64,000 nt of DNA, taken from assembly GCF_002215215.1 (NCBI RefSeq), contig NZ_CP018632.1:4088501-4152500 (forward strand). The letters run 5' to 3'. The position numbers and the translations under genes are program-made. Of this stretch, positions 3,678-62,485 are shown in pieces. The stretch's first letter is position 1. Each line of letters opens with the position of its first letter. This DNA is from Granulosicoccus antarcticus IMCC3135 (GTDB taxonomy: Bacteria > Pseudomonadota > Gammaproteobacteria > Granulosicoccales > Granulosicoccaceae). The notes beneath the pieces were generated by a model, which was given only the letters and a program-made list of their open reading frames with translations, was not told where the DNA came from and made no database searches.

Positions 3678-4997
3678 TTACCTGTTAAGCATCTCAACTC
3701 GCACCATCTGCTTCTCTGTTACCCACTGGGAGTTCTTGAGCGCATCCTCAATAGTTGCAGCGTCCTCCAGGACGTTAGCGAACTGTTGGCCGACCGCTGT
3801 GGCGATTCCCGTAAATTCGGGCATGGCCACGAATTGCACACCGGTATAAGGCACCTCTTCTACTGTCGGTTTAGTCGGATCCGCCGCTTCAATACTGGCG
3901 AGTGTCATGGCAGCAAAAGGGACTTTCTGGTATTCAGGATTCTCATACAGAGACTTTCGGGTACCCGGCGGCACACTAGCCCACCCATCAGTCTCGGCAA
4001 CCAGAGCGAGATATTCTTTAGATGTTGCCCAAGCCACGAATTTCTTCGCAGATTCCTTACTGTCGGTACTCTGAGGTATGGCCAAAGCCCATGCCCATAG
4101 CCAGTTGGCGCGCTTGCCCAGCCCATTGTCAGGTGCCATAGCGAAGCCCACCGAATCGGCTACCGTGGATTCCTTGTTCGTGACGAACTGACCAGCAGCA
4201 GTGGCATCTATCCAGATTGCACACTGGCCTTGTTGAAACAGTGCCAGGTTTTCCTGGTAGCCTTTGGTTGATGCCTCCACAGGACCATTATTTTTCAACA
4301 GATCTGCATAGGTAGTCAGCGCGCTATTCCAGGCCTCACTGTCGAGCTGGGGTTTCCAATCCATATCAAACCAACTGGCTCCGTAAGAATTTGCCATGGA
4401 TGTCAACAGCGCCATGTTCTCGCCCCAGCCTGCCTTGCCCCGTAGACAAATTCCGGAGACACCCTTGTCTCGATCAGTCAGTGTATTTGCAGCCTCTTTG
4501 ATGAAATCCCAAGTGGGCTCATCGGGCATTTCAAGCCCTGCCTGCTCAAACAGATCGGTGCGATACATCGTGAAGGAGGACTCTCCATAAAAAGGCGCGC
4601 CGAACAAAACACCATCATGCGATAAACCCGATCGGATCGGCGGTAGAAGATCACCAATGTCATAATTACCCGGCAAATCGTCCAACGGCATCAACCAACC
4701 ACGCTCAGCCCAGATCGACGCCTCATAGGTTCCGATCGTGACCACATCGAACTGCCCACCACCAGTGGCTATGTCTGTAGTGGCACGTTGGCGAAGTGTA
4801 TTCTCATCCAGAGTCACCCATTCGACAGTAGTGTCAGGATTGTCTTTTGTAAAATGTTCTGTCAACGCTTGCATTCGAACCATATCGCCATTGTCTACGG
4901 TGGCGATGGTGATCGTGTCAGCGACAGCCGTTGACAGGGTTGCACTGAAGGCAAGGCACGCTATGGACGTTGCAGAGATACGTATGGAATTCATCAT
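3678..4997 (-). CDS. ABC sugar/polyol solute-binding protein (sorbitol/mannitol SmoE type)
   Basis: Periplasmic extracellular binding protein of family 1, 439 residues. A cleavable signal peptide (about 24 residues ending at TAVA-D) is followed by TITIATVDNGDMVRMQALT and a WVTLDEN block near residue 65, typical of mannitol/sorbitol binding proteins. Two adjacent ATGs (4997 and 4994) follow AGGAGG; the second has better spacing, so the start could be one codon later. No ABC permease or ATPase gene follows: the next gene is an NCS1-type permease. Its ABC partners must lie elsewhere or it may be an orphan receptor. The divergent AraC regulator is the likely controller. Confidence 0.85.
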   Translation of the reverse strand: MMNSIRISATSIACLAFSATLSTAVADTITIATVDNGDMVRMQALTEHFTKDNPDTTVEWVTLDENTLRQRATTDIATGGGQFDVVTIGTYEASIWAERGWLMPLDDLPGNYDIGDLLPPIRSGLSHDGVLFGAPFYGESSFTMYRTDLFEQAGLEMPDEPTWDFIKEAANTLTDRDKGVSGICLRGKAGWGENMALLTSMANSYGASWFDMDWKPQLDSEAWNSALTTYADLLKNNGPVEASTKGYQENLALFQQGQCAIWIDATAAGQFVTNKESTVADSVGFAMAPDNGLGKRANWLWAWALAIPQSTDSKESAKKFVAWATSKEYLALVAETDGWASVPPGTRKSLYENPEYQKVPFAAMTLASIEAADPTKPTVEEVPYTGVQFVAMPEFTGIATAVGQQFANVLEDAATIEDALKNSQWVTEKQMVRVEMLNR

Positions 4998-5455
4998 GGA
5001 TCCTCCTGTACATGACAACACCTCGATCATACGAGAGGCAATGAGCGCTCATTCGAACCTGATATGCAAGTGCGTATTTTTTACATCAACGTCTGCGGAT
5101 TCGGAAGAGCAATGTCGTGCCACTAGTCAGTCACTAGAATGATGACTATCACTCATGACATCCGATCTAGCCAGGCACAACTCAAACATACGCTGGTTAC
5201 ACATGCCAAACCAGTACTTGGATGTTCGGAATTTGTACTGAGATGCGAACTCCAAAACGGCTCAAGGCCAAATACTCGTTGAAAGTTACATTGGGAGCAC
5301 GTTGAGTCATGTAATTAATCGTGTATTGAAGAACTGCACTTTTATGGATAAGATAGATTTTCTGAGAGAAGCTGCAGCGTTCCGTTCCTACCTCACTCGA
5401 CATTTCAGGACACAGGAAAAGATTTACGAAGTCCTGTTTCGGAGATATTTTCAAT
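4998..5455. promoter_or_regulatory. Divergent intergenic region between binding protein and AraC gene
   Basis: About 460 bases separating two divergent genes, AT-rich near the AraC end. It must hold both promoters and probably the AraC-family binding sites. I did not find a clear palindrome, terminator or convincing small gene in it. Confidence 0.4.
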
Positions 5456-6343
5456 ATGCCTGATCCCGTCTACTCTCACCTGGATCCAGAGCTGGGACCG
5501 CCAGAGGTTGATCCGCGTTCTATACATGCTTTTTGGCATGGCTTCCCCAGCCCACTGGTCCGATGGCACTTTCACCACGAATTCGAGCTACACCTGATTG
5601 TCGCCAGCGAAGGCAAGGTATTTGTGGGAGATCATGTTGGCGAATTCTCACCAGGGCATTTGGTTTTGATGGGCCCTCGGCTGCCACACAACTGGATCAG
5701 TCAGACACAAGCCGGTGACACCGTCGAGATGCGCGATGGGGTAATACAGTTTCGAGAGAATCTAGTGCAGTCCATGGCGGCATTTGCTCCTGAGCTGAAG
5801 CGCGTACTGCCGATGCTTGACCGTGCTCGCCACGGTATAGAATTCCGAGATAGTCTTTGTGCTGAAGCAGTGAAGTGGTTTGAAGATCTCATCAGTAGCG
5901 ACGGACTTCGTCGTATCGGACTACTATTCGAAATACTTGAACGCCTGTCACGTGAGCGAGAATATCGAACGCTATCAACGGCACCACTGAGTTCTGGCAG
6001 GAACATCGCGCTGGTGAGTAAACTCGAACGAGCGATGAACCACATCAAAGAGCATCACGATAGCAGTATGAAAATGGACTCCGTGGCCGAACTTATTGGC
6101 ATGAGTAATAGCTCGTTTTCGCACTATTTTACAAAATCAACGGGAGGCAGTTTCACCCAATTTCTGAACAATGTACGAATTACTCATGCGTGTGAGCTGC
6201 TCAGCACCACAGAGAGTCAAATCACTGACATCTGCTACACAGTGGGTTTTAATAACGTCGCCAATTTCAATCGACGCTTCCGAATGATCAAGGGCATGAC
6301 GCCCAGGGAGTATCGAAAACGAATATTAGTAGGCCATTGTTGA
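5456..6343 (+). CDS. AraC-family transcriptional regulator with cupin sensor domain
   Basis: 295 residues. The N-terminal half is a cupin-like ligand pocket (WHFHHEFELHLIVASEG near residue 37, then FSPGHLVLMGPRLPHNW). The C-terminal ~100 residues hold the two helix-turn-helix motifs of the AraC/XylS family (MDSVAELIGMSNSSFSHYF and the second helix with ITDICYTVGFNNVANFNRRF). Closing residues GMTPREYRK are the usual family ending. It is divergent from the polyol binding-protein operon and is probably its activator in response to the sugar alcohol. Ligand identity is inferred from context only. Confidence 0.88.
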   Translation: MPDPVYSHLDPELGPPEVDPRSIHAFWHGFPSPLVRWHFHHEFELHLIVASEGKVFVGDHVGEFSPGHLVLMGPRLPHNWISQTQAGDTVEMRDGVIQFRENLVQSMAAFAPELKRVLPMLDRARHGIEFRDSLCAEAVKWFEDLISSDGLRRIGLLFEILERLSREREYRTLSTAPLSSGRNIALVSKLERAMNHIKEHHDSSMKMDSVAELIGMSNSSFSHYFTKSTGGSFTQFLNNVRITHACELLSTTESQITDICYTVGFNNVANFNRRFRMIKGMTPREYRKRILVGHC

Positions 6344-6393
6344 TCGTTGCAGGTCAATTCTCGTGCTCTCTGACTATTTGCAGCTGCAGTTCG

Positions 6394-8220
6394 CTAGAAA
6401 CTCCTTGAAATAATCGAATAACACAGCAGAAGCATTAACACCGCTGAAACGCATTGCCAGAAACGCACTGGGTGCCGTTCAGCCAGAGGCATTCTACCGG
6501 CTTGCCGACTAGCCTCTATGCTGGGTCGTCGCAGATCTTCAAGAAATTCAGAATATGAAGTGTGACGCTGCTCGGGGCGAGCTGCCAGAGATTTCCTCAG
6601 CGCAAACTCTACCCAAGGCGGCAGGTCTGACCTGATCTGCGATAACGGCTTGGCCAGATACGCCGAACTACCCGCACGCCCTTGTGTCTTGGGTGAACTA
6701 TCTGTCGGCAGAGAACCGGTCAAGGCCTCAAACGCGATCGTTCCCAATGAAAACAAATCTGAACGCCAATCGACAACCCCATTGAAGTTCTCTGGTGCAA
6801 CATAACCAACCGCCCCGACAGGGACCTCTTCAACAAGCGATATACCAAAATCCTCCAGACCATCAACTCTGGCTGTGCCAAAATCAATAATCGTGCAGCC
6901 ACCTTCGGCGCTGACGATGACATTCTCAGGCTTCAAGTCCCGATGGACAATGCCCGCACGCCGCAGAGCTCGCAAGCCATCAACGATACTCGACAATAAC
7001 GGTCTGAGTTCTGCCAAGGTAGGGGTTGGATGATCAATCATCCATTGGCGCAAGGACTCACCGGGAAGCTTTTCGGATAGCGAATATAAAAAGGGAGAGT
7101 CACTTGTGGGGCTGACACTTCTGGGTAACGAGGAATGATCAAACCCTTCCATAAGCCAGCATTCTCGTGCGAATCCCTGCAGATAGAGAGCATCATCGGC
7201 AAAGTTCCTCGACGGAGCTTTCAGCACAAATTCTCGTTTGTCTGTATCGCGACGCACAAGGTATACGTGGCTACGCGTGCTTTGATAGATAGTGCTGATG
7301 ACTTCCAGATCATCGATGCGCATTCCCGTACTCAGAACCGGAGGAATGATGACCGCAAGCGCTCGCCGGCGAATCTCTTGTTCGTCGTGCGAAGGCAATG
7401 AAACAACACGAGCAAACAAACAAGTCGCATCGTCATATTCAATTTCAGTACCCGAACTTGACCTTGCAGTATCCAGTACCTGTGCAGATGCCGATTCAAG
7501 ATCGTTGTCAGCCTGTTTCAATGACTCAACCAGAAGTTCGCGAACAGTTGAAACCGGCAAATCCCCATGAACACCATCAGTGGTGAGGGCGATCACATCA
7601 CCTTCAAGCAGACTGTGTTCTATATGGTCCAGTTCAACTGAGAGGTCTGCTCCAAGTGCTCTGGCAAGTAGCAGTCGGCCGCTGCTTCTTACCTGATGGT
7701 CTCGTGTCAGTTGCTGCGCGTTTTCGTCTCTGATAAGCCAGGCACGACTATCGCCTGCATGGAAAATATGTGCTGTGCAGGATTTAACGACAACGGCTGT
7801 GAACGTTGTCATCAGCCCATCGCCTTCCACTTCTCTGGCTCGATTCGGGGCATTCTGCGCATATAGCCACCCGTTCAGCGTATCCACAGTTGCAGCTGCA
7901 CAATCTCGTACGCTTCGGGTAGAGCCTGAGCCCAGGTATTCGTTGATAAATTCGGTGACAACCAACTCGCTGGCGATACGCGATGTCTGGCTTGATCCGA
8001 CACCATCGGCGATAGCCATGACAACGCCACGATGACTGCGAAGTGCTACTTTATCTGGCTGACAAGCTGCAAATGCATCGCGGTTTGGTCCATGGGCCCC
8101 GGCACGACTTGTGCCACCGAATACCAACTCGGGCGCATCGACCTTGGCCTTCTCTTTTACTTCACCTGTCGTGTCAGGTGCTGTATAGCCGGTGTCACTA
8201 TCAATCAGCTTGTTCACCAT
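6394..8220 (-). CDS. Bifunctional PP2C phosphatase / serine-threonine protein kinase, C-terminal membrane anchor
   Basis: 608 residues. Residues about 35-275 are a PP2C-type phosphatase (NRDAF, IADGVGSS, HAGDSRAWLI, LTTDGVHG, DDATCLFARV metal-binding motifs). Residues about 300-560 are a Hanks-type kinase with HRDLKPENVIV and IIDFGTARVDG; the ATP-binding glycine loop is degenerate (STIYQSTRSHVYLV). A single hydrophobic segment at the extreme C terminus would anchor it in the inner membrane. It is the last gene after narK in the nitrate operon, a linkage I recall from other proteobacterial nas loci, so a role in controlling nitrate uptake or reduction by reversible phosphorylation is likely but unproven. 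Start chosen at the ATG at 8220; a TTG lies three codons upstream. Confidence 0.9.
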   Translation of the reverse strand: MVNKLIDSDTGYTAPDTTGEVKEKAKVDAPELVFGGTSRAGAHGPNRDAFAACQPDKVALRSHRGVVMAIADGVGSSQTSRIASELVVTEFINEYLGSGSTRSVRDCAAATVDTLNGWLYAQNAPNRAREVEGDGLMTTFTAVVVKSCTAHIFHAGDSRAWLIRDENAQQLTRDHQVRSSGRLLLARALGADLSVELDHIEHSLLEGDVIALTTDGVHGDLPVSTVRELLVESLKQADNDLESASAQVLDTARSSSGTEIEYDDATCLFARVVSLPSHDEQEIRRRALAVIIPPVLSTGMRIDDLEVISTIYQSTRSHVYLVRRDTDKREFVLKAPSRNFADDALYLQGFARECWLMEGFDHSSLPRSVSPTSDSPFLYSLSEKLPGESLRQWMIDHPTPTLAELRPLLSSIVDGLRALRRAGIVHRDLKPENVIVSAEGGCTIIDFGTARVDGLEDFGISLVEEVPVGAVGYVAPENFNGVVDWRSDLFSLGTIAFEALTGSLPTDSSPKTQGRAGSSAYLAKPLSQIRSDLPPWVEFALRKSLAARPEQRHTSYSEFLEDLRRPSIEASRQAGRMPLAERHPVRFWQCVSAVLMLLLCYSIISRSF

Positions 8221-8312
8221 CGTTTGCAAACCATAAACGCCTGAACAACAGGCAGGCTTGTTTTCACGCGTTATACGTCAGTAGAAATTAAGGGATATCA
8301 GAGCTTGTTGCT

Positions 8313-8334
8313 CGGGCACCCTTGCAGGTGCCCG
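8313..8334 (-). promoter_or_regulatory. Hairpin downstream of narK
   Basis: Perfect 8-bp stem (CGGGCACC / GGTGCCCG) with a six-base loop, just after the narK stop and before the phosphatase/kinase gene. No T run follows, so it may only reduce read-through or protect the narK end of the message. Confidence 0.45.
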
Positions 8335-8345
8335 AAACGTCAGTC

Positions 8346-9812
8346 TCAGCTTACAGCGATCAGTTTGACTTTGCCATGCTCGTCAATCTCGGCGATCTCA
8401 CCGCTAGGCTCTTCCAGCAAGAGCAAGGCACAGAAGCCAACGACGGCGGTACCTGCAATGACAAGAAAGAAGGTGCTGGCAGGGACCATTGAATAAACCA
8501 GCAAGTACACGACTGCACCTACATTGCCATAGGCACCCGTCATACCCGCAATCTGACCTGTCTGACTACGCTTGATCAAAGGCACTACTGCGAACACTGC
8601 CCCTTCCCCTGCTTGTACAAAGAAAGAACAGGCCATGACAGCGATCACTGCCAAAGCCAGTGGCCAGCTAGAGCTCACTGTCGACATCAACAAATAGCCT
8701 ATTGCCAATCCAGCAGTCAGGATGAGAAGTGTACGACGTCGCCCGTATCGATCAGAGATCCAGCCGCCTCCAGGTCGAGACATCAGGTTCATGAATGCAT
8801 AGCCTGATGCCAGCATACCCGCTAGTACAGGCGTCAATTCAAAAGTATTGGCGAAGAACAATGGCAGCATGGAAACCACAGCCAGCTCTGAACCGAAAGT
8901 GGCAAAATACAGTACACAAAGGACCGCTACCTGCTTGAAGCTGAATTTCTGAACGGCGGGAATCTCTTCACTAAATACCTTTTTATTGATCTTCCAAACC
9001 AACGACACTTCGTAGACAAACAGCAGTACCAAACCCGTGTAGATAAGGTTCGACGTCATTTGGGAGATCATGTCAACGCGTGCCGGGGACAACCGCCATG
9101 CGAGTACAGCCAGGGCAATATACATCGGCACCTTCATCACAATGAGAAAGAAGAAATCGTTCTTACTCGTGATTTCCATTGCACCGGACTGCTTTGGCTT
9201 GTAGTACGTCGAACCTTTAGGCGTGTCACTGGTACCCGCATAATAGATAAATCCCATCACCAGACTCATCAAGCCGGTTATCGCCACCGCCCAGCGCCAA
9301 CCGTCTTCACCGCCAAACATCAATGCAACGGTAGGCAATGTGAAGGCCGCAGCAGCTGAACCGAAATTGCCCCAGCCGCCATAAACACCTTCGGCTGTAC
9401 CCAGCTCGTTGTGCGGAAACCACTCACTGACCATTCGAATACCAATAACAAAACCAGCTCCAATTGCGCCAAGTGCGAATCTGGCTATTGCGAGTTGCGT
9501 ATAGCTTTCTGCAAAAGCGAAAAAGAAACAAGGTATCGCCATGATCACCAACAGCGAAGAATAGACCAGTCTCGGACCAAAGCGATCGGTCAGAATTCCA
9601 ATGATTACACGGGCTGGAATGGTCAATGCGACGTTCAGGATCAATAAGGTTGTAACTTGTGCTTTCGTTAAACCAAAGGTCTCCTTGATAGCTTGCAGCA
9701 TCGGCGCAAGGTTAAACCACACGACAAAGGTGATAAAAAAAGCGATCCAGCTCAGGTGCAGGATCTTCATCTTCCCTGTGAAAGCAAGCAGATTGAAGCG
9801 TTCTGTTGTCAT
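8346..9812 (-). CDS. narK: Nitrate/nitrite MFS transporter, NarK family
   Basis: 488-residue inner-membrane protein with about 12 membrane segments. The first segment ([20 protein letters not shown]) and the MFS loop [12 protein letters not shown] are typical of the nitrate/nitrite porter family; a nitrate-signature-like glycine-rich stretch ([13 protein letters not shown]) follows in the middle, and a second ([18 protein letters not shown]) near the C terminus. It lies directly downstream of the assimilatory nitrate reductase and provides substrate uptake. ATG at 9812 chosen; an upstream TTG extension to 9887 is not family-like. Could exchange nitrate for nitrite, but the assimilatory setting favours nitrate import. 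Confidence 0.92.
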
Positions 9813-26301: not shown

Positions 26302-27978
26302 TTATTCGTCTAGCCAATCCAGACTGTCGTATGCTGCAAGTGGCAGATCAACAAGTTGAGCGCCGATTGTTTCACGCTGTTCGCCATCTGCATCCAATAA
26401 ATTGTAGTCAACGAACAGATACTGGCCTTCACTGGCTTCAGGATTGGCACTGATGGTCAGTACAGAATCGTCAGAGCCAAGCATTTGCAGCTGGCCACTG
26501 AAGGGAACATTTTCGCTTTCCAATGACCCCACTCCCAGAACACGGTTCAGAGGTGCGATGGTGGTTACGCTAACCGCGGTATCATCGGTCAGCTCGCCCG
26601 AAATCCAACCTTGCACATCCAGTGAAGAACTCTGGAGCGCACCATTGGATGTATTCGAAAACTCCTGGATGAAATTGGCATCAGCGATTGTCAGTGAAGG
26701 TGCGGAGAACGGTACACTGCTCTCCTGCAGTACATACTGTGGAATCGAGACGCTTCGCTGCCGATTGATACTAACGCCAGAAGTGTTGTCGCTGGCCTGC
26801 ACACTGGCGTTGACAGTCAATGCGAAACCGTCCGTCCGTATATCGAATCCCGTGAAGGCAATCGAATTCTCGATGGTGTTAAAACGGCTGCCGGAGACGA
26901 AATCTCTCTGAACTGCCAGCTTGCCAATGATTTCATAGGAGCCTGCGACAGGAACACCGGCGTCGAGTTCAGTCTGACAGTTGTCAAATTCCCAGATGTT
27001 GTAGCTGGTATCGTGCGAGTATTCAGATTCGCGGATACGCGTACGTCCGGTCTCCAACGTCATGGTGCCGCCTTCAGCGCAGGCATACTGCGTTCGTTCC
27101 GTGGGTTGTGCGATTTCATCAACCTCGTACTGTCCTGCTTCCAGTACCGTGACGCCGATATTGCCAGCAATGATGCTAGCGGCGACTTCGGGGGCCGCGG
27201 CCGCCGCCTCGTCCAGCCTGTAGCCAGCCAGCTCGGTAATAAGCTCGTTCGACTGTGTGTCCAACACCAGTCCCGTGCCTGCCCCATCATCGCCTTCCAC
27301 CACGATGCCCTCGTGGCGTTGACCGGTTGTCAGGTTGATGACAATGTAAACACCGGCAGCTACGGTGCATGACCTCCCGCCCTCGCAAAAGGATTCGTAA
27401 GTGTCGGCCGACTGCACCTGATACCAGCCATCGTCCGGCCAGCTGATGGTGTTGCCATCAACGAGTACCTCGTCCGTAGCCTGTGAAGATGAGACCGTGA
27501 CATCGGTGAAACGCTCACCGGTGGTATGGTTGATCACAATGTAGCTGCCTGGCTCAACCTGGCAGGATCGAGTGCCCTCACAAATATTGGTCAGGCCATC
27601 GGCGCTCTGCACTTGATACCAGCCATCGTCCGGCCAGCTGACGGTGTTGCCATCGACCTGAATGCTGCCCGTTGCCGGTGAAGCCGGAACCGTAACATGG
27701 GTGAAACGCTCACCGGTGGTATGGTTGATCACAATGTAGCTGCCTGGCTCAACCTGGCAGGATCGAGTGCCTTCACAAATATTGGTCAGGCCATCGGCGC
27801 TCTGTACTTGATACCAGCCATCGTCCGGCCAGGATATTTCGGATCCTGAGACCACCGGCTGCGCCTGCGCCAGTGGCGCTGCCAACAAGGCGGCTACTGC
27901 AGCGGCGACAAGGCTTACCTTGTTTGTCAAGACATACTGACCACTCACGTGTCTGTCCGTCTTTTTGCACATGATCAT
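26302..27978 (-). CDS. Secreted repeat protein with three WPDDGWYQVQS modules
   Basis: 558 residues, unknown family. A signal peptide (ending near LAQAQ, residue 40) is followed by three tandem 65-residue modules (Trp at 50, 115 and 180). Each reads SWPDDGWYQVQSA, then CEG-RSC (a likely disulfide), then PGSYIVINHTTGERF. Modules 1 and 2 are almost identical in protein and DNA. The rest (250-558) is a beta-rich domain with a Cys pair (YACAEGGTM ... EFDNCQ) shared with the two related genes at 29177 and 31471. Export to the periplasm, surface or medium is likely; ligand binding or envelope structure is a guess. The ATG at 27972 is an alternative start. Confidence 0.8.
   Translation of the reverse strand: MIMCKKTDRHVSGQYVLTNKVSLVAAAVAALLAAPLAQAQPVVSGSEISWPDDGWYQVQSADGLTNICEGTRSCQVEPGSYIVINHTTGERFTHVTVPASPATGSIQVDGNTVSWPDDGWYQVQSADGLTNICEGTRSCQVEPGSYIVINHTTGERFTDVTVSSSQATDEVLVDGNTISWPDDGWYQVQSADTYESFCEGGRSCTVAAGVYIVINLTTGQRHEGIVVEGDDGAGTGLVLDTQSNELITELAGYRLDEAAAAAPEVAASIIAGNIGVTVLEAGQYEVDEIAQPTERTQYACAEGGTMTLETGRTRIRESEYSHDTSYNIWEFDNCQTELDAGVPVAGSYEIIGKLAVQRDFVSGSRFNTIENSIAFTGFDIRTDGFALTVNASVQASDNTSGVSINRQRSVSIPQYVLQESSVPFSAPSLTIADANFIQEFSNTSNGALQSSSLDVQGWISGELTDDTAVSVTTIAPLNRVLGVGSLESENVPFSGQLQMLGSDDSVLTISANPEASEGQYLFVDYNLLDADGEQRETIGAQLVDLPLAAYDSLDWLDE
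27271..27855 (-). repeat. Three tandem 195-bp coding repeats
   Basis: Units at about 27661-27855, 27466-27660 and 27271-27465, each encoding one 65-residue WPDDGWYQVQS module. The first two (in reading order) share long identical stretches of DNA, for example the block starting ACGCTCACCGGTGGTATGG at 27511 and 27706, exactly 195 bases apart. The third is diverged. This points to a recent in-frame duplication or gene conversion. Confidence 0.85.
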
Positions 27979-28233
27979 AACTGCGGTGTCTCTGGAGAAT
28001 TGATAGGTTCGAACCGTTAAGGAGAAACGGCATCCGTGAAGAGATCGGCTTGGCCGTCTTGTTCACTGACGAGATTTTTACTCCTTTAAGCGATCAAATA
28101 CCATCCCGGACATTGGTATTTTTACACAGTTTCCGATCAACTAATCGACCCGCGAGTGCCTGGAATAATGTCTCTCCAGCCATCCCTTTTTTCCATCTCA
28201 GCGCCCTATAAAGGGTGATTCAAATCAGAACTT

Positions 28234-28740
28234 TCAACCACCGTAGCTCTCCTTGAAGTTTCGGTAAACATCATTCGATATACTTAAATAATAGGTTTCC
28301 GAGTAGTCAGCATATACAAGCTCGTAGTAAAATTCGTCTTTGCCTAACCAGCGATACGAGGCGTCCCCATCATCGTATACTTCTTCCCCATCTCCTAATG
28401 ACTCTGTTAGAAAATTGAAGAGGCGATCTCTGTTTTCATCACCTTTGAACGAGACATTAATAAGACCTATCTCTTTATCGAAAAGGCTGATAGTACAGTC
28501 TTCAAGCGTGAAATCCAACAGCTTGAAACTTGGCGAACCTGAGCTGTAGTAAGAGTCAGTAGAGGTATCACCATATTTTGCTGAAGAATGATCAAGCGTT
28601 TTCGCCAAGGTAATAGCCCCACTTGGGTTATCAGCCTTCAAGTAGGTAGACAGGTCAGGATTGTCTTTAGCCATTCCTACTTGAAAAAACAGGCTTGACG
28701 AGAGCGCGAATAGTAGTAAAAAAGGTTTACGTATATTCAT
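28234..28740 (-). CDS. Small secreted protein of unknown function
   Basis: 168 residues from the ATG at 28740. The N terminus (MNIRKPFLLLFALSSSLFF, then QVGMAKD) is a clean signal peptide with cleavage near MA-KD. The mature part is acidic and Tyr-rich (YYSSGSPSF, DGDASYRWLGKDEFYYELVY) with one Cys, and has no motif I recognise. The region is more AT-rich than its surroundings, which suggests recent acquisition. It sits between two members of the WPD-module paralog group and on the same strand as the first. The ORF could be extended upstream to 28821, but that part does not look like an exported N terminus. Confidence 0.65.
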   Translation of the reverse strand: MNIRKPFLLLFALSSSLFFQVGMAKDNPDLSTYLKADNPSGAITLAKTLDHSSAKYGDTSTDSYYSSGSPSFKLLDFTLEDCTISLFDKEIGLINVSFKGDENRDRLFNFLTESLGDGEEVYDDGDASYRWLGKDEFYYELVYADYSETYYLSISNDVYRNFKESYGG

Positions 28741-29176
28741 ATTTTTATAATTGCTTCGACTTATTACCCGGTAATTGAAAGCAACATGATAAACCAACAG
28801 AAACATGGTTTCCATAGCCATGAGCTGCCAACTACTTTTCCCATACTCCTTTCAAGACCTCAGCCAGCTGCTCCATCACACATCTGGCACAGAATCAATC
28901 TCCACCGAGCAGCCATTACCCTTGCTACTCCTTTCTGGTGCAGGACCCATCGACCGCAGTCAGATACATTTTCTCCAGCTAACCTACAACCTTGTATTGT
29001 GGGCACATCGTGCGACGATGTACGAAACCCTCACTAATCAAACCAACATTACAAATATGATTTAGTAACAGATAGGCCTCTGGATAAGGTACTAATACCC
29101 ATCAATGGTAAATCAATCATGATTCAATGTGCAGGCACATTTGATGGGTTCAGTGCTTCAATAACAAGGAGTTTTC
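28741..29176. other. Intergenic region, no clear gene
   Basis: About 435 AT-rich bases between divergent genes. It holds the promoters of the small secreted protein and of the FN3/WPD-module protein. A 73-86 codon open frame on the plus strand has no family resemblance or ribosome site and is not called. Confidence 0.3.
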
Positions 29177-30943
29177 ATGAAGACAATACGTCTGTTACCT
29201 GCTTTACCTTATCCCGCTATCGGCTTGTTGGGAGTTTTTATAGTTCCGGCCAGTTTGTTTGCTGCGCCAGTTGCAGAGGCTCCCGAGAACCTGAGAGCCA
29301 GCAATTACAGCTCGAGCCAGATCAGCTGGTCATGGGATGAGGCCATTGATGAAACCCGCGGTAAAGCCACAGGTTATTCTCTATATCTGGATGGCCAGAA
29401 GTTCGTGGATGATCGTCTGCTGACGAGCTACGCAATTGGGCAAGCTACTTTGTATAACGGTCACACCTATTCAATTGAAGTGAAGGCACACTACGCCAAT
29501 GGTGATGTGTCTGAACCAACCAGCTTTTCCTATACCAGTGACTACAGCCTGTCCAATGTCAGAGCTAGTGTTTATTCCTCCACTGCGGCGGAGTTGTTCT
29601 GGGACAGACCACCCTACAGTAGTTCTACACTGTTTGACATCTATCGCGATGGTGAGCTGGTCAGTACACAGAATAACAACAGCTACTTTGATGACGAGTT
29701 ACAGCCAGGAGTCACTTATACTTATCAAATCGACTATCGGGATAGCTATACCAGTAGCACACCCGCTATTTTGATCATATCCACATCTGAGCCAGATCGA
29801 ACAGACTCTCCTGATTACAGTAGTGCCGGAATTCTTGTTGATGGATTGGATATCAGTTGGCCAGATAATGGTTGGTATCAAGTTCAAAGCGCTACTGATT
29901 ACACTGCATTTTGCGAGGGCGGAAGATCGTGTCGTGTCACGCCGGGGGTCTATAACGTTATCAATCTTACCAGTGGTGAGCGATTTGAAGGTGTTGTGGT
30001 TGCGGCGAGTGAAAAAAGAGGCAGTAGCATCAATCAGGATAATTATGCGGCGCTATTGTCGCAGGTGTTCAAAGTCTACAGTGGTCAAGCCTATGACCAT
30101 CGTATTGATGTGTATTATGATGATATTCAGACCAATTATCTCAGTGAATTCGATACGCAGGACGAAGATGGAAACCCACGCACATATGTAACGCGTAGTT
30201 GCATGGGCCCGTTGTCTGGTGCCGAGGAAGAAACGGTGGAACGTGCAATAGATGCTTTTAATGGCATCGTATTTGACTCGATGGACTTCAATCGATGCAC
30301 GTTGAGCGGCTATGAGACGGCTGAGCAGCAGAATGATGTGGGAGATGTTCGGAACGGGCAAATAATTAATCATACTGATCAAGTTGCCAGTAGGTCTGAT
30401 TTTGCAAACTACTCTGTCTTACTCGACAACGCAGTAGGGTTCGGACGAATGTATATCGACGGCAGTGCTCAACGTGCATACGGACGAAGTACTAATGATT
30501 TAATCTCTGGATGGACAAGTGATGGCTTGAACTATGCTTTCACCCTTGATAGTGATACTTTGTTGATCGATACAGACAAGACAGAGTTCTTCTCCGGCAT
30601 TGATCTGCATCAGTTCATCGCGGGCATGAGTGGTAGTTTCACGATGCAGACTGAGGTGTTGCAAGGCCTCAAGGTTGCAGCGACGATCGAAAAAATATTT
30701 TCCTATCAAATCCAGGATCCCGAGGAAGGTATCTTGGACTCATGGTCTTTCGGAGAAGGCAAGCTCAGGCTTGTGGCGGCAGATAATAGTGAGCTGGTGC
30801 TTGATGCAGATAACGGTGATCAGAGCACCGTCGAGGTTACTATCATCAATTCTTCTGGGGAGCACGTATTAACAGACTCATGGGAGAACTGGCGATCTGA
30901 TTTACTTGTCAGAGAGCCTGCTACTCCGGCCTTGTTGTATTAA
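29177..30943 (+). CDS. Secreted protein with two FN3-like domains and one WPD-GWYQVQS module
   Basis: 588 residues, signal peptide ending near LFAAP (residue 31). Two fibronectin-type-III-like domains follow: about 34-115 (PENLRASNYSSSQISWSWDE) and 120-203 (VRASVYSSTAAELFWDRP). Then comes one module like those in the 26302 protein (ISWPDNGWYQVQSATD, CEGGRSC, PGVYNVINLTSGERF, about 220-275). The C-terminal ~300 residues resemble the lipoprotein at 31471: NYAALLSQVFKVYSG, a Cys pair, and ELVLDADNGDQSTVEVTI. AAGGAG lies six bases before the ATG. Likely extracellular or envelope-bound; function unknown. A terminator follows. Confidence 0.8.
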   Translation: MKTIRLLPALPYPAIGLLGVFIVPASLFAAPVAEAPENLRASNYSSSQISWSWDEAIDETRGKATGYSLYLDGQKFVDDRLLTSYAIGQATLYNGHTYSIEVKAHYANGDVSEPTSFSYTSDYSLSNVRASVYSSTAAELFWDRPPYSSSTLFDIYRDGELVSTQNNNSYFDDELQPGVTYTYQIDYRDSYTSSTPAILIISTSEPDRTDSPDYSSAGILVDGLDISWPDNGWYQVQSATDYTAFCEGGRSCRVTPGVYNVINLTSGERFEGVVVAASEKRGSSINQDNYAALLSQVFKVYSGQAYDHRIDVYYDDIQTNYLSEFDTQDEDGNPRTYVTRSCMGPLSGAEEETVERAIDAFNGIVFDSMDFNRCTLSGYETAEQQNDVGDVRNGQIINHTDQVASRSDFANYSVLLDNAVGFGRMYIDGSAQRAYGRSTNDLISGWTSDGLNYAFTLDSDTLLIDTDKTEFFSGIDLHQFIAGMSGSFTMQTEVLQGLKVAATIEKIFSYQIQDPEEGILDSWSFGEGKLRLVAADNSELVLDADNGDQSTVEVTIINSSGEHVLTDSWENWRSDLLVREPATPALLY

Positions 30944-31017
30944 TCTTCACGGCTTACTCGCTTTCGATTGATAGAGCGAATACCGTAGTATTTTTATTAT
31001 TAGCTACAGTAGTGAGG

Positions 31018-31052
31018 CGGGTGGTTCATGTCAGTGTGCCACCCGTTTTTTT
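31018..31052 (+). terminator. Intrinsic terminator after FN3/WPD-module gene
   Basis: Stem CGGGTGG (31018-31024) pairing with CCACCCG (31039-31045) followed by seven T. Textbook rho-independent terminator about 75 bases after the stop codon. Confidence 0.85.
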
Positions 31053-31123
31053 ATTATATTGAGGCATACGCTGATCGCCTGACTGTCAATAGCTCTAGCA
31101 GCTTGTGGTCAAGAAAAGCCCAC

Positions 31124-31285
31124 TAAGGGGTCGTGAAATAATTAACTATACTTTTCGGTTGGTCCTGCGCCTGCCCGGCAAGGCGTGAGGAGGGCGAATA
31201 GCGGGCTATTCAACCGACAAACAACGCAGAAGGGCAGGATGCAGGGGCGACTGAAAAGTATAGTTTATTGTTTCACGACCCCTAA
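31124..31285. mobile_element. MITE-like element with ~31-bp terminal inverted repeats
   Basis: Left end TAAGGGGTCGTGAAATAATT... (31124-31156) and right end (31253-31285) are inverted copies with two or three mismatches; both continue into AACTATACTTTTC. The ~96-bp core is GC-rich and holds its own small hairpins (GAATAGC/GCTATTC; GCCTGCC/GGCAAGGC). There is no coding capacity. A short related palindrome lies at 62503-62548. The structure fits a non-autonomous transposable element moved by a transposase elsewhere. Confidence 0.65.
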
Positions 31286-31470
31286 ATACTCATGGAATAC
31301 GCCGTGGATAATAGAACATGCCAGTGGTGACGTGTCGGTTGAAAACTACTGAACAATCAACAGAGCCTGACTACAGGTTCCAACAAATGCTTTTGCATGG
31401 TTGAAAAGCACCTTGTCAGAATCTAAAAGGGCAATGCCAATGGGCACTGCCCGCGCTACATCCTCAGCAA

Positions 31471-32445
31471 TCAGAACCCAGTAACGGTGACGAACCTGAA
31501 ACTGTCTGACAATAACGACCAGGGTTCAATCACGGTATCTGTCACCCCATCAGAGGTGATGCTTACTTCCACTGTGTTGACATCCCCGGTATCGGCATTG
31601 AAAACAAGAACATTGTCGTCACCATTGCGTACCTCAAACGACCCTTGATCGATGATTACGCCAGCGGAATCCACCAATAGCAGATTGTCAATCGTACTCA
31701 CTGCCAGTTCAATATCATTAGTCCAGTTGGCTTTCACATGAAACCCACCAGAAGTTCCGGTGAATGTGCCCGCGTAATAGTTCACATTGGATTCTGTGAT
31801 AACCAGATTGTCAACATTGTTTGAGTAGGTGAAGTCAACATCCTCGGTTATAAGGGTGCCAACACCGTCAGCTCTTTCGGTAGCGAAAGACGAGTAGTAC
31901 AAATCACCTGAAAATTCGATCTGCCTCGATTGCGATGTATTGGAATAGTCAGCGGATGTAAATCTGACCGACTCGTATATCTCTCTCTTGAGCTGCCCTT
32001 CTCGTACCGCCTCGCCCTTCTGACAATTATCAAATTCGAAGTCCCAGGAGGTAACAGCGTCAGCGGGTTGGCCATCGGTGGCTGGAGTGATACTGACCGT
32101 GCCACCATTTTCACAAACGATATCAACGGGGGTTGATATCAGATCGCCAGTCCCATCGGCCGCATATTCAACACCCGTGGGTACCAATCGGTCACCACTG
32201 TCAGGCTCTATCAGAACTTCGTCGGCCCAAAGTTTGCCTGAATAGATGGAAAGAACGTTTCTCAGCAGCTCGACGTGGTTATCCATCGTAATGAAATCAG
32301 CAATTGTTTCCTGCTCTGTATCCGTTGTGCCGTCATCCCCTGGGATTGAAGGGTCATTCTGCGATACCGGAATGTCATCATCGTCAGAGCTACTACAGCC
32401 AACGGCAAAAACAGCAGTAGCCAGTAGCAATACGCTAATTTTCAT
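31471..32445 (-). CDS. Lipoprotein paralogous to the secreted WPD-module proteins
   Basis: 324 residues from the ATG at 32445. The signal peptide ends in a lipobox (VFAVGCSS) with an acidic linker (SSDDDDIPVS). The mature part matches the C-terminal domain of the protein at 29177: DNHVELLRNVLSIYSGK against DNYAALLSQVFKVYSGQ, a Cys pair (IVCENGGTVS ... FEFDNCQKGE), and LVFNADTGDVNTVEVSIT against LVLDADNGDQSTVEVTI. It has no WPD module. Asp after the lipobox region suggests possible inner-membrane retention, although the +2 residue is Ser, which favours the outer membrane. Function unknown. Confidence 0.78.
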   Translation of the reverse strand: MKISVLLLATAVFAVGCSSSDDDDIPVSQNDPSIPGDDGTTDTEQETIADFITMDNHVELLRNVLSIYSGKLWADEVLIEPDSGDRLVPTGVEYAADGTGDLISTPVDIVCENGGTVSITPATDGQPADAVTSWDFEFDNCQKGEAVREGQLKREIYESVRFTSADYSNTSQSRQIEFSGDLYYSSFATERADGVGTLITEDVDFTYSNNVDNLVITESNVNYYAGTFTGTSGGFHVKANWTNDIELAVSTIDNLLLVDSAGVIIDQGSFEVRNGDDNVLVFNADTGDVNTVEVSITSDGVTDTVIEPWSLLSDSFRFVTVTGF

Positions 32446-32702
32446 TGTATGAACGTCCTTGAAGAATATGAAGGGCTGCATGATAAATCAGTTAGCACTT
32501 TGGAAAAAGCGGGAATATTAACCATTTCACATTTCCGGGTTCTAGCCCGATCGCGTCAAGGGCAAACTTCTAACCACGAAAATGCATCTCGTTACATTGT
32601 GCACCCACCGTAATATCACTCCGATTCATTACTGATCACGCATAGACACGACACTGTTGATACTTTTCGTGCTCTAACAAGGAGGACTGGACATCAGGCT
32701 TT

Positions 32703-59511: not shown

Positions 59512-60417
59512 ATGAACACAATACGAGAAAAACTGTGGCCTCTACCCAAGCTGAAGGCAAGCCTTCTGGGCTGGGGCTATGTCGCCCCGGCGCTGCTGAT
59601 CATGGGCGCCCTGGTGCTTTGGCCCCTGGCCTCGACAATCTGGGATAGCTTCTACAGCGTCAACCCCATGAAGGTAGGCAAGCCCTTTGTTGGCCTGGAC
59701 AACTATATAAACCTGCTCTCCGATCCCAATGTCCGACAAGCATGGAGCAACACTTTCCTCTATGTGCTTTTCACGGTCGTCATCGAAACCGTTCTGGGTG
59801 TCAGTGCTGCCTTGCTGTTGAACAAGGTCAAGTTCGGCCGAAGCTGGCTGCTGGCGGCACTGATACTGCCCTGGTGTCTACCTCCGGTAGTCAATGCCAT
59901 CGTCTGGGGCTGGATCTTCAATCCAAGCTATGGCGTGCTGAACAACGCCTTGCTTTCCATGGGCGTCATTAGTGAAAACAAGGTCTGGTTCAATGAGCGC
60001 CTGTCGGCACTGTTCATGATCTCTGTGGTACATGCCTGGCGCATGATGCCTCTGACTGCCATTATCATACTGGCAGCCCTGCAAAGCATTCCAAAAGAGC
60101 TTTATGAAGCGGCGAAACTGGATGGCGCCGGTGCTATCAAGATGTTCCGCAAGATCACTCTGCCACTGATCGCCAGCGGACTGGCCATAGCCCTGAGCCA
60201 GTCAACGGTTTTCGCCTTCAACATGTTTGACGAGGCGTGGATCATGAATGGCACCGGCTACGACACCCGCTCGGTCATGATACAGGTGTATATGTCGGCC
60301 TTCCAGAATCTGAAATTCTCCTACGGGATGGCTCTGTCAATCATGGCCATGCTCGCCTCTCTGATCATCTCCGCCGTGTATGTACTGCGTGTCTATCGTG
60401 AAACGAGGTTCGACTGA
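59512..60417 (+). CDS. ABC sugar permease, MalF-type
   Basis: 301 residues, six membrane helices. The cytoplasmic EAA loop (ELYEAAKLDGAGAIKMFRKI) that contacts the ATPase is present. Ends with TGATG, the stop overlapping the next permease start by one base. Confidence 0.92.
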   Translation: MNTIREKLWPLPKLKASLLGWGYVAPALLIMGALVLWPLASTIWDSFYSVNPMKVGKPFVGLDNYINLLSDPNVRQAWSNTFLYVLFTVVIETVLGVSAALLLNKVKFGRSWLLAALILPWCLPPVVNAIVWGWIFNPSYGVLNNALLSMGVISENKVWFNERLSALFMISVVHAWRMMPLTAIIILAALQSIPKELYEAAKLDGAGAIKMFRKITLPLIASGLAIALSQSTVFAFNMFDEAWIMNGTGYDTRSVMIQVYMSAFQNLKFSYGMALSIMAMLASLIISAVYVLRVYRETRFD

Positions 60418-61295
60418 TGTATTCACCCACTTTGAAGATATTTGCGGGTCGCGCCGGACTTTGCCTGGCCGTATTGGTGCTGCTGCTCTGGTCAATAGGT
60501 CCGGTCTACTGGTCGCTGGTGACCAGCCTGACGCCCCCCAATGATCTGGTATCAGCAGAGCTGCATCTGTGGCCACAGACGCTGACGTTCGAGCACTACA
60601 ATAAGCTGTTCGGGGCAACCAGCCAGTCACAGGGCAATGAGGTGCAGTCGGTATGGCCGCAGTTTTCACGCGCCTTTTTCAACAGCATTGTTACCTCTGT
60701 AGGGGCCACACTGCTGACGGTAGTGATTGCCGCCTTTGGTGCCTACGCCTTTGTCCGGTTCAGCTTTCCCGGTCGCGACATACTGTTCTTCATTGTCGTG
60801 GCAACCATGGCAATTCCGGCCTACACGGTCATGATCCCGCTTTATCGGCTGATGATCTCTGTGTCGCTGATTGACACCATGACAGGCGTTATTCTGATTT
60901 ATGTCTCAGCCTTTCTGCCACTGGCCTTGTGGCTTATGCGCAGCATCTATCAGGCCATTCCCATCTCTCTTGAGGAGGCCGCCTATCTGGATGGCGCCGG
61001 TAAAACCCATACCTTGATCAAGATCATTCTGCCTATCGCAGCCCCTGGTCTGATCGCTGCGGCCATTCTTACTTTCCTGAATGCCTGGGGTCAGTTCATG
61101 GTGCCACTGGTCTTCTCACCCACGCTGGCAACAAAACCACTGACCGTGCTTATCCCTGAGTTCGTGACCCGCAACTATATCGACTACGGTTTGATGAACG
61201 CGGCAGGCATCATTGCCGTGGTGCCCCCCATATTGCTGGTGATTTTCCTCAACCGGTTTCTGGTCAGCGGCTTGATGGCAGGTGCGGGAAAATAA
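60417..61295 (+). CDS. ABC sugar permease, MalG-type
   Basis: 292 residues, six membrane helices with the EAA loop (SLEEAAYLDGAGKTHTLIKI). Forms the membrane channel with the MalF-type partner; translationally coupled to it. Confidence 0.92.
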   Translation: MYSPTLKIFAGRAGLCLAVLVLLLWSIGPVYWSLVTSLTPPNDLVSAELHLWPQTLTFEHYNKLFGATSQSQGNEVQSVWPQFSRAFFNSIVTSVGATLLTVVIAAFGAYAFVRFSFPGRDILFFIVVATMAIPAYTVMIPLYRLMISVSLIDTMTGVILIYVSAFLPLALWLMRSIYQAIPISLEEAAYLDGAGKTHTLIKIILPIAAPGLIAAAILTFLNAWGQFMVPLVFSPTLATKPLTVLIPEFVTRNYIDYGLMNAAGIIAVVPPILLVIFLNRFLVSGLMAGAGK

Positions 61296-61402
61296 CGCTC
61301 CCCGCGCACATCAGAACACCTTAACCGCCGCGCCGGGCAATACACAGGTGCAGGCCACTCTACACACTTGCACTTGCGTGCTCTTTGGAAAAGGATAGAA
61401 CT

Positions 61403-62485
61403 TTGGCCAAGCTGGAAATATCACAACTGAAGAAGCGTTACGGTCGGGTCGAGGTGATCCATGGCGTCGACATGACGGTTGAGGATGGCGAGTTTGTCTC
61501 GCTGATCGGCAGCTCGGGATGTGGTAAATCAACCATGTTGCGCATGATTGCAGGCCTGGAATCGGTGAGCTCGGGGAGCATGTCGCTCGATGGGCGGCTG
61601 ATCAATAGCGTTGAACCCAAAGATCGTGATATCGCCATGGTCTTCCAGAACTACGCACTGTACCCTCACCTGAGCGTTGCACAGAACATGGGGTTCAGTC
61701 TCGAACTTCGCAAAGTGCCCAAGAAAGAGGCAGCCATTGCGGTTGCCAAAGCGGCAGAGATGCTGGGTCTGACCCCCTACCTGGACCGAACACCCAAAGC
61801 ACTGTCAGGTGGTCAGCGTCAGCGGGTGGCCATGGGGCGTGCCATCGTGCGCAATCCTCGCTTGTTCCTGTTTGATGAACCGCTGTCAAATCTTGACGCC
61901 AAACTGCGAGTACAAATGCGCATGGAGATCAAGGCGTTGCAAAAGCGCCTGGGCACAACCTCGATTTACGTCACCCACGACCAGGTCGAGGCGCTGACCA
62001 TGTCCGATCGCGTGGTTCTGCTCAACGCCGGACGTGTCGAACAGATCGGCACGCCGATGCAGGTCTACAAACGTCCTGCAAACGTATTTGTTGCAACCTT
62101 CATCGGATCCCCTGCAATGAACCTCTTGTCAGGCACCCTGTTGCGCGACGCTGATCAGTGCTTTGCCAAGGTGGATGGAAAAACGTTTGCCCTGCCCGAA
62201 TGCGAAGGCGTTGCCGATGGAACAAGCATCAAACTGGGTGTGCGGCCCGAGCACCTGAGAATTGTCGATGGCCCTGATGCTCAAGACACGTTCAATATGA
62301 GCGTTGAGGTGGTTGAGACAACGGGCGCGGAAACCCATGTCTATGGCTGCCTGGGGGCTGACAACATGACGGTCACCCTGGATGGTGAAATATCCCCCAC
62401 AGTGGGTGAGACGATCCGCTTGCAATCCCCCACAAAAACTCTGCACGTGTTCGATGCCGCCAGTGGCGCACGACTCAATTCCTGA
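61403..62485 (+). CDS. ABC sugar transporter ATPase, UgpC/MsmK type
   Basis: 360 residues. Walker A (GSSGCGKST), signature (LSGGQRQRVAMGRAI) and Walker B (LFLFDEPLSNLD) followed by the TOBE-type C-terminal regulatory domain (LGVRPEHLRI). The start is taken at TTG 61403: AAGGA lies seven bases upstream and MAKLEISQLKKRYG is the usual family beginning. An upstream TTG at 61385 is less likely. Completes the importer; the palindrome at 62503 follows. Confidence 0.9.
   Translation: MAKLEISQLKKRYGRVEVIHGVDMTVEDGEFVSLIGSSGCGKSTMLRMIAGLESVSSGSMSLDGRLINSVEPKDRDIAMVFQNYALYPHLSVAQNMGFSLELRKVPKKEAAIAVAKAAEMLGLTPYLDRTPKALSGGQRQRVAMGRAIVRNPRLFLFDEPLSNLDAKLRVQMRMEIKALQKRLGTTSIYVTHDQVEALTMSDRVVLLNAGRVEQIGTPMQVYKRPANVFVATFIGSPAMNLLSGTLLRDADQCFAKVDGKTFALPECEGVADGTSIKLGVRPEHLRIVDGPDAQDTFNMSVEVVETTGAETHVYGCLGADNMTVTLDGEISPTVGETIRLQSPTKTLHVFDAASGARLNS

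Follow-up and report, generated by a model that had tools for sequence, protein, structure and literature searches.

The genome of Granulosicoccus antarcticus IMCC3135, a single contig of 7.78 Mb, carries a group of neighbouring genes for exported proteins that share a repeated WPD module and a C-terminal domain (CTD). We analysed these genes in a 64,000-nucleotide stretch of the genome (NZ_CP018632.1, positions 4,088,501 to 4,152,500), referred to here as the window, and followed both domains into related genomes. The genes and features of the locus, in window coordinates, are as follows.

26302-27978, minus strand: gene A, 558 residues, with a Sec-type signal peptide (judged by eye), three WPD modules and a CTD
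27286-27858, minus strand: tandem array of three WPD modules in gene A (residues 41-231), 109 to 111 bits each against the module profile
Residues 41-100, 106-165 and 172-230 of gene A, minus strand: the single WPD modules, from the module profile
Residues 277-514 of gene A, minus strand: CTD, from the profile match
28234-28821, minus strand: gene B, 195 residues, an exported-looking orphan between genes A and C
29177-30943, plus strand: gene C, 588 residues, with a signal peptide (by eye), two FN3 stretches, one WPD module and a CTD at residues 285-576
29831-30010, plus strand: lone WPD module of gene C (residues 219-278), from the module profile
31471-32481, minus strand, likely start 32445: gene D, 336 residues as listed, a lipoprotein with a CTD and no module

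A sequence-only reading of this locus had described a paralogous cluster in which the module occurs three times in the first gene and once in the second, with a Cys-pair-containing C-terminal domain in all three. The module counts were borne out by a profile built on 28 seed modules of the host genome, a set that includes the modules of genes A and C, each of which scores 102 to 111 bits. The sequence motifs quoted in that reading were all found in the translations of the open reading frames (ORFs). Its FN3-like domains correspond to two stretches of gene C that match PF00041 above the cut-off in a Pfam scan (E 3.9e-10), and its lipoprotein is gene D, for which a start at 32445 gives a better lipoprotein signal than 32481, as judged by eye. 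As a unit, the cluster is not conserved. Although the genes are adjacent in the window, their strands (minus, minus, plus, minus) are incompatible with one operon, the gene A orthologue in locus L055 has different neighbours, and the members of the family are scattered over the whole genome.

Sequence, constraint and range of the WPD module

Residue conservation was read from 189 distinct proteins with 617 modules, obtained by merging the locus ORFs with 120 listed homologues, the best 120 of 513 proteins found in a search limited to lengths of 0.55-1.75 times that of gene A. Because a three-module query and the best 120 of 513 homologues were used, this sample is skewed to large arrays. The module comprises about 61 residues around a WPD..GWYQVQ core, with a near-invariant Cys-x5-Cys motif. 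Cysteines C28 and C34 are practically invariant in the 617 modules, residues G30, G39, Y41, N45, R51, Q17, Q19, W15, Y16, V18 and I44 are conserved in at least 93%, and H46 together with the B-C loop residues P11, D12 and D13 in 71-88%. Structure prediction returned seven short strands of immunoglobulin (Ig)-like character, the fold match being weak, and in this predicted arrangement the conserved polar and aromatic residues would map to the loops B-C and F-G and to one face of the C and G strands. Since the B-C and F-G loops of the first modules of arrays are conserved about as well as those of later ones, their conservation is independent of a preceding module. The modules are acidic, with a mean net charge of -5, and contain 0.3% lysine as compared to 1.1% in the rest of the same proteins; net charge per residue is similar in both parts, so the acidity belongs to the whole proteins.

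Domain libraries gave little purchase on this sequence. No Pfam model reached its cut-off on gene A, the module region of gene C or gene D, and NCBIfam yielded no matches on genes A, B or C and a meaningless one (E 0.11) on gene D, in line with the proposal of an undescribed envelope or extracellular family. The nearest Pfam models on the whole of gene A were LBP_C (PF17386; 20.2 bits, E 0.00053, cut-off 26.6) and SH3_3 (PF08239; 18.8 bits, E 0.0018, cut-off 27). When 33 modules were scanned singly, nine Pfam families appeared at E <= 1, none with an E below 0.011; SH3_3, in three modules, and Proteasome_A_N, in one, ranked first, and LBP_C appeared in two, with a best E of 0.11. Bacterial SH3 was rejected as lying below its curated cut-off on gene A and on every single module, and LBP_C as lying below its own on gene A, with the poor single-module score just given. 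Gene A had no sequence match in the PDB, and the module profile had one, which was very weak.

In the host genome, a gene A query gave 24 matches and the module profile 38 places, and 37 modules are distributed over 15 proteins. The remaining place, at C1:262146-262343 upstream of the module gene of locus L026, is a module fragment whose frame contains one stop codon, possibly a decayed copy. Of the 75 matches to a gene C query, many fall on its FN3 part and lie in other large ORFs, indicating a genome rich in FN3-bearing proteins. With the host genome counted throughout, the module was detected in 17 of 29 relatives, all positives belonging to the same genus, in 25 of 27 genomes of the genus, and in 30 of 48 Granulosicoccaceae genomes, representing four of six genera, one of them by a single weak match; the order-level search comprised the identical 48 genomes. 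Samples of the class and the phylum, in which at most 16 or 17 candidates were scored per genome, contained the module in 3 of 369 genomes, all of the same genus, and in 1 of 398, the host genome. We also scanned the contigs of 84,980 species with two exact peptide patterns, which divergent relatives would escape: 103 stretches fit a pattern and 67 encode a relative, giving 64 loci, 63 of which are titled Granulosicoccus or Granulosicoccaceae and the remaining one 'uncultured bacterium'. The sequence-only reading had made its family depend on a second genome with the module; it recurs in many, and in the genomes searched it was found only in Granulosicoccaceae.

Modules of different proteins in the host genome share a mean identity of 54.7% (634 pairs), and where fourfold codons are conserved, their third base is identical in 31% of 9582 comparisons, as compared to 27% expected from composition. 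By a control measure, modules showed 53.5% identity, FN3 domains 27% (8 domains, 26 pairs) and the CTDs of the host genome 23% (12 domains, 66 pairs). An identity of about 54% combined with saturated synonymous sites is hard to reconcile with recent copying and favours selection for a common role; the modules are thus old and have been kept by selection across unrelated partners. The gene A orthologues of the window and L055 are 80% identical over the modules and 76% elsewhere, a contrast that is uninformative.

Array placement and apparent exchange with a lipid anchor

The module is present in all 120 of the listed homologues (best 120 of 513), with three or four copies in 115. Among the 189 proteins, one copy occurs in 5, two in 27, three in 86, four in 65 and five to eight in 6, so that 184 carry 2 to 8 modules. 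Placement was counted in 188 proteins after removal of one fragment, with starts assigned mechanically. The array is N-terminal in 159 of them (150 plain, 5 with an additional later module, and 4 consisting of modules only, which have 5 to 8 copies, one being cut by the locus end), C-terminal in 13, and internal in 16, including gene C, some of which may really be N-terminal. Ahead of 147 of the 159 N-terminal arrays lies a signal-peptide-like hydrophobic segment, from which the first module is separated by a median of 8 residues.

What follows the array is highly variable. In a survey of 65 of the 92 module ORFs in the fetched loci (Pfam, E 1e-5; 25 of 33 families listed), the partners were GH16 in 9 proteins, FG-GAP in 6, Kelch_6 and fn3 in 4 each, FG-GAP_2 in 3, GSDH, M90 peptidase and integrin-type VWA in two each, and GH10, fasciclin, Rax2, mucin WxxW, peptidoglycan-binding and metallophosphatase domains in one each; NCBIfam assigned beta-glycanase and kappa-carrageenase names to 9 of the same proteins. 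Pfam annotation of the homologue list (best 120 of 513) has trypsin in P0014 and, in P0108, PF06452, a family-9 carbohydrate-binding domain. The absence of any known enzyme from the cluster therefore stands for the window genes, whereas elsewhere modules are fused to GH16, GH10, GSDH, trypsin and peptidase domains. The nearest PDB relatives of the host GH16 are beta-1,3- and 1,3-1,4-glucanases and laminarinases, and in L030:7189-9165 and the other GH16 fusions a glucanase-like GH16 is joined to modules. According to the available part of PMC9238374, laminarinase genes are surprisingly absent from the kelp-associated genomes of that study, whose strict cut-offs may have missed such genes.

The CTD, common to genes A, C and D, has about 270 residues and one cysteine pair. 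A profile search seeded with gene D alone, run against 1279 locus and window ORFs and the 120 homologues, recovered gene C at E 6e-48 and gene A at E 2.3e-37 within five rounds, confirming the earlier view that all three share this domain, and in the fifth round gave 80 matches in 79 proteins. Among the 48 family genomes, 31 have the CTD. Beyond the family, the class sample contributes three more genomes with it, two from genus g53. In genus g275, 7 of 14 genomes have the CTD and 1 of 14 has the module, by a weak match. At L123:1234-2208, in another family of the class, lies a CTD protein with a lipobox. Its presence as a lipoprotein outside Granulosicoccaceae, and in g275 nearly without modules, makes the CTD older than the module or wider in range. 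Conversely, genomes G016, G015 and G009 contain modules and no CTD match at E 1e-5.

On this shared domain, lipid anchor and modules are mutually exclusive. None of the 66 CTD proteins with modules carries a lipobox, as compared to 10 of the 15 without modules (81 distinct proteins, Fisher p 1.6e-9, not corrected for kinship); two of the other five module-free proteins look truncated and three appear, on inspection by eye, to carry an ordinary signal peptide. Across all module proteins, a lipobox-like signal was found in 1 of 189. Gene D is the lipid form of the domain, and genes A and C are module-tagged forms of it.

Module or CTD genes adjoin each other in six other fetched loci besides the window. 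In L114, a gene of eight modules only (5686-7404) lies next to one with two tandem CTDs (7428-9173), and in L063 a CTD-only gene (4876-5817) next to a module and CTD gene (5863-7413). Gene B shows no sign of membership in the family: neither Pfam nor NCBIfam matched it at E 1, and tblastn against 99 loci found nothing at 1e-6. Three consecutive genes at window positions 59512-62485 have relatives near module genes, three in each of L081 and L088 and one each in L074, L114 and L117, as raw counts with no background rate.

Known systems and a candidate function

We assign the module to no known family; functionally, it comes closest to binding or anchoring modules used in tandem. In common with the BACON (PF13004; BACON_2, PF19190) and DUF1735 domains, it is predicted to be Ig-like and is often N-terminal, as in the 159 of 188 proteins above, and followed by very diverse partners including glycosidases. 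In the available part of PMC11216935, BACON and DUF1735 are described as occurring in several copies per genome, mostly in one phylum, with a lipoprotein signal predicted in 76% of BACON and 96% of DUF1735 proteins. The WPD module, in contrast, is gammaproteobacterial and not from Bacteroidota, forms arrays of 2-8 with a Cys-x5-Cys motif, stands at the C-terminus of some proteins, and is not mostly found in lipoproteins. Neither BACON family was among the nine obtained at E <= 1 for the 33 modules. FN3 (PF00041) resembles the module in its seven strands, which are predicted for the latter, and occurs beside it in the same proteins, whereas the module has about 60 residues and the near-invariant cysteine pair. 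FN3 had no match at E <= 1 in the 33 modules, lies outside the module in gene C, and reached an hhalign probability of 0.2% when 66 FN3 segments from the same genomes were aligned for comparison. As with carbohydrate-binding modules appended to glycosidases, WPD modules are terminal and tandem, and they are joined to GH16 in 9 and to GH10 in 1 of 65 proteins, the others having different domains or no matched one; no listed Pfam family matches the WPD module, and most of its partners are not glycosidases. SLH and choline-binding repeats are terminal repeats that retain unrelated exported proteins without a lipid or covalent anchor. The module is similarly repeated, terminal and joined to many unrelated exported partners; these repeats are, however, absent from its Pfam matches at E 1, and its host is Gram-negative.

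We favour, with a probability of about 0.5, the reading that the WPD module is an Ig-like, disulfide-braced, tandem binding domain serving as a retention handle; it is probably multivalent, glycan-binding and able to substitute for lipidation. A retention module with a single common target is what several features suggest in combination: placement at either terminus, copies in tandem, diverse partners, constraint on a common surface, and modules in place of the lipid anchor. The proteins would be exported from the cytoplasm by Sec, via the signal-peptide-like segment just ahead of the array, the cysteine pair would form a disulfide in the periplasm, and the folded proteins would cross the outer membrane, plausibly through a type II system, whose secretin (GspD) is encoded in the host genome above the cut-off. 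Usually two to four modules, and eight at most, would then attach to a single shared, repetitive target, for which a glycan of the own cell surface, the biofilm matrix or the seaweed wall is the likeliest candidate. Conservation and predicted strands suggest the B-C loop (WPDDGW), the F-G loop (NHTTGxR) and the Q17/Q19/R51 face as a putative binding surface. Held by the array in place of a lipid anchor would be the variable partner, be it GH16, GH10, a protease, a beta-propeller, FN3 or the CTD. Directly visible in the sequences are the module family, its range, terminal placement and constraint, and the mutual exclusion of modules and lipobox; binding, and with it the recognition role of the sequence-only reading, the ligand and the route of secretion are inferences.

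Passive spacing is an unlikely alternative, in which the modules, as BACON or DUF1735 of Bacteroidota, would only distance the partner from the cell and bind nothing. The architecture is of the same kind, with an N-terminal domain ahead of diverse partners, and the available part of PMC11216935 argues for a spacer role of the BACON domain of BoGH5A and of DUF1735. Yet the FN3 domains of the host genome, themselves likely spacers, share 27% identity as compared to about 54% for the modules at saturated synonymous sites, 13 arrays are located at the C-terminal end, and the free end of a spacer needs an anchor, of which a lipobox-like signal in 1 of 189 proteins gives little sign. Spacing thus accounts for the architecture, not for the constraint or the missing anchor. 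Somewhat less probable still, in our view, is that the modules dock onto proteins instead of glycans, binding a surface scaffold or the CTD of neighbours. Confinement to one family would suit a lineage-specific receptor, and module genes adjoin CTD-only genes in the window, L063 and L114; however, the CTD exists in another family and in g275, where modules are nearly absent, and three genomes carry modules without a CTD match.

We give the lowest probability to a sorting or secretion signal that an export machine would recognise, as happens with the Ig-like C-terminal domain of type IX substrates. Such signals usually occur once per protein, at one terminus, whereas 184 of 189 proteins here have 2 to 8 copies and arrays stand at either end; with C-terminal arrays in 13 of 188 proteins and 2 to 4 copies in most, the modules do not match the single type IX domain at the extreme C-terminus. 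Among export machines, GspD alone was searched for, lineage-specific machines lying outside that search.

For the retention handle, two hints bear on the target: restriction to one family suggests that the family itself makes it, and the seaweed habitat suggests algal glycans. The available parts of PMC8944128 and PMC9238374 rank Granulosicoccus first in abundance among the genera on bull kelp blades and describe it as the dominant symbiont, located close to the kelp surface; together with that of PMC10233909, they make it a core genus on several seaweeds, and a table in PMC10233909 lists it at 4.3-11.7% (four columns) and at 0.13 and 0.22% (two columns). These parts of the three papers name type IV pili and no dedicated Granulosicoccus adhesin. 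The acidity of the modules makes direct binding of acidic glycans a poor fit unless calcium mediates it, and the free-living habit of the type strain G. antarcticus, as given in the available part of PMC9238374, counts against a purely algal role.

Possible, if doubtful, is a system of non-covalent surface display specific to Granulosicoccaceae, in which a multivalent Ig-like tag at either end, interchangeable with a lipid anchor, would be calcium-bridged to the producer's own lipopolysaccharide or exopolysaccharide. The acidic, nearly lysine-free modules, with the Asp/Asn pair of the B-C loop and the Asn of the F-G loop, would supply the calcium bridges, and a target on the producer's own surface would account for the absence of the module outside the family despite shared algal habitats. 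If this is true, dozens of enzymes, propellers and adhesin-like domains would be displayed on a target found only in this family.

The analysis adds a module family absent from Pfam and NCBIfam and, besides it, the CTD as another unnamed domain. That the CTD occurs in lipidated as well as in module-tagged proteins amounts to a natural experiment on interchangeable surface anchors. As the module tags many exported proteins of these bacteria, it would offer a direct handle on what the whole set is tethered to.

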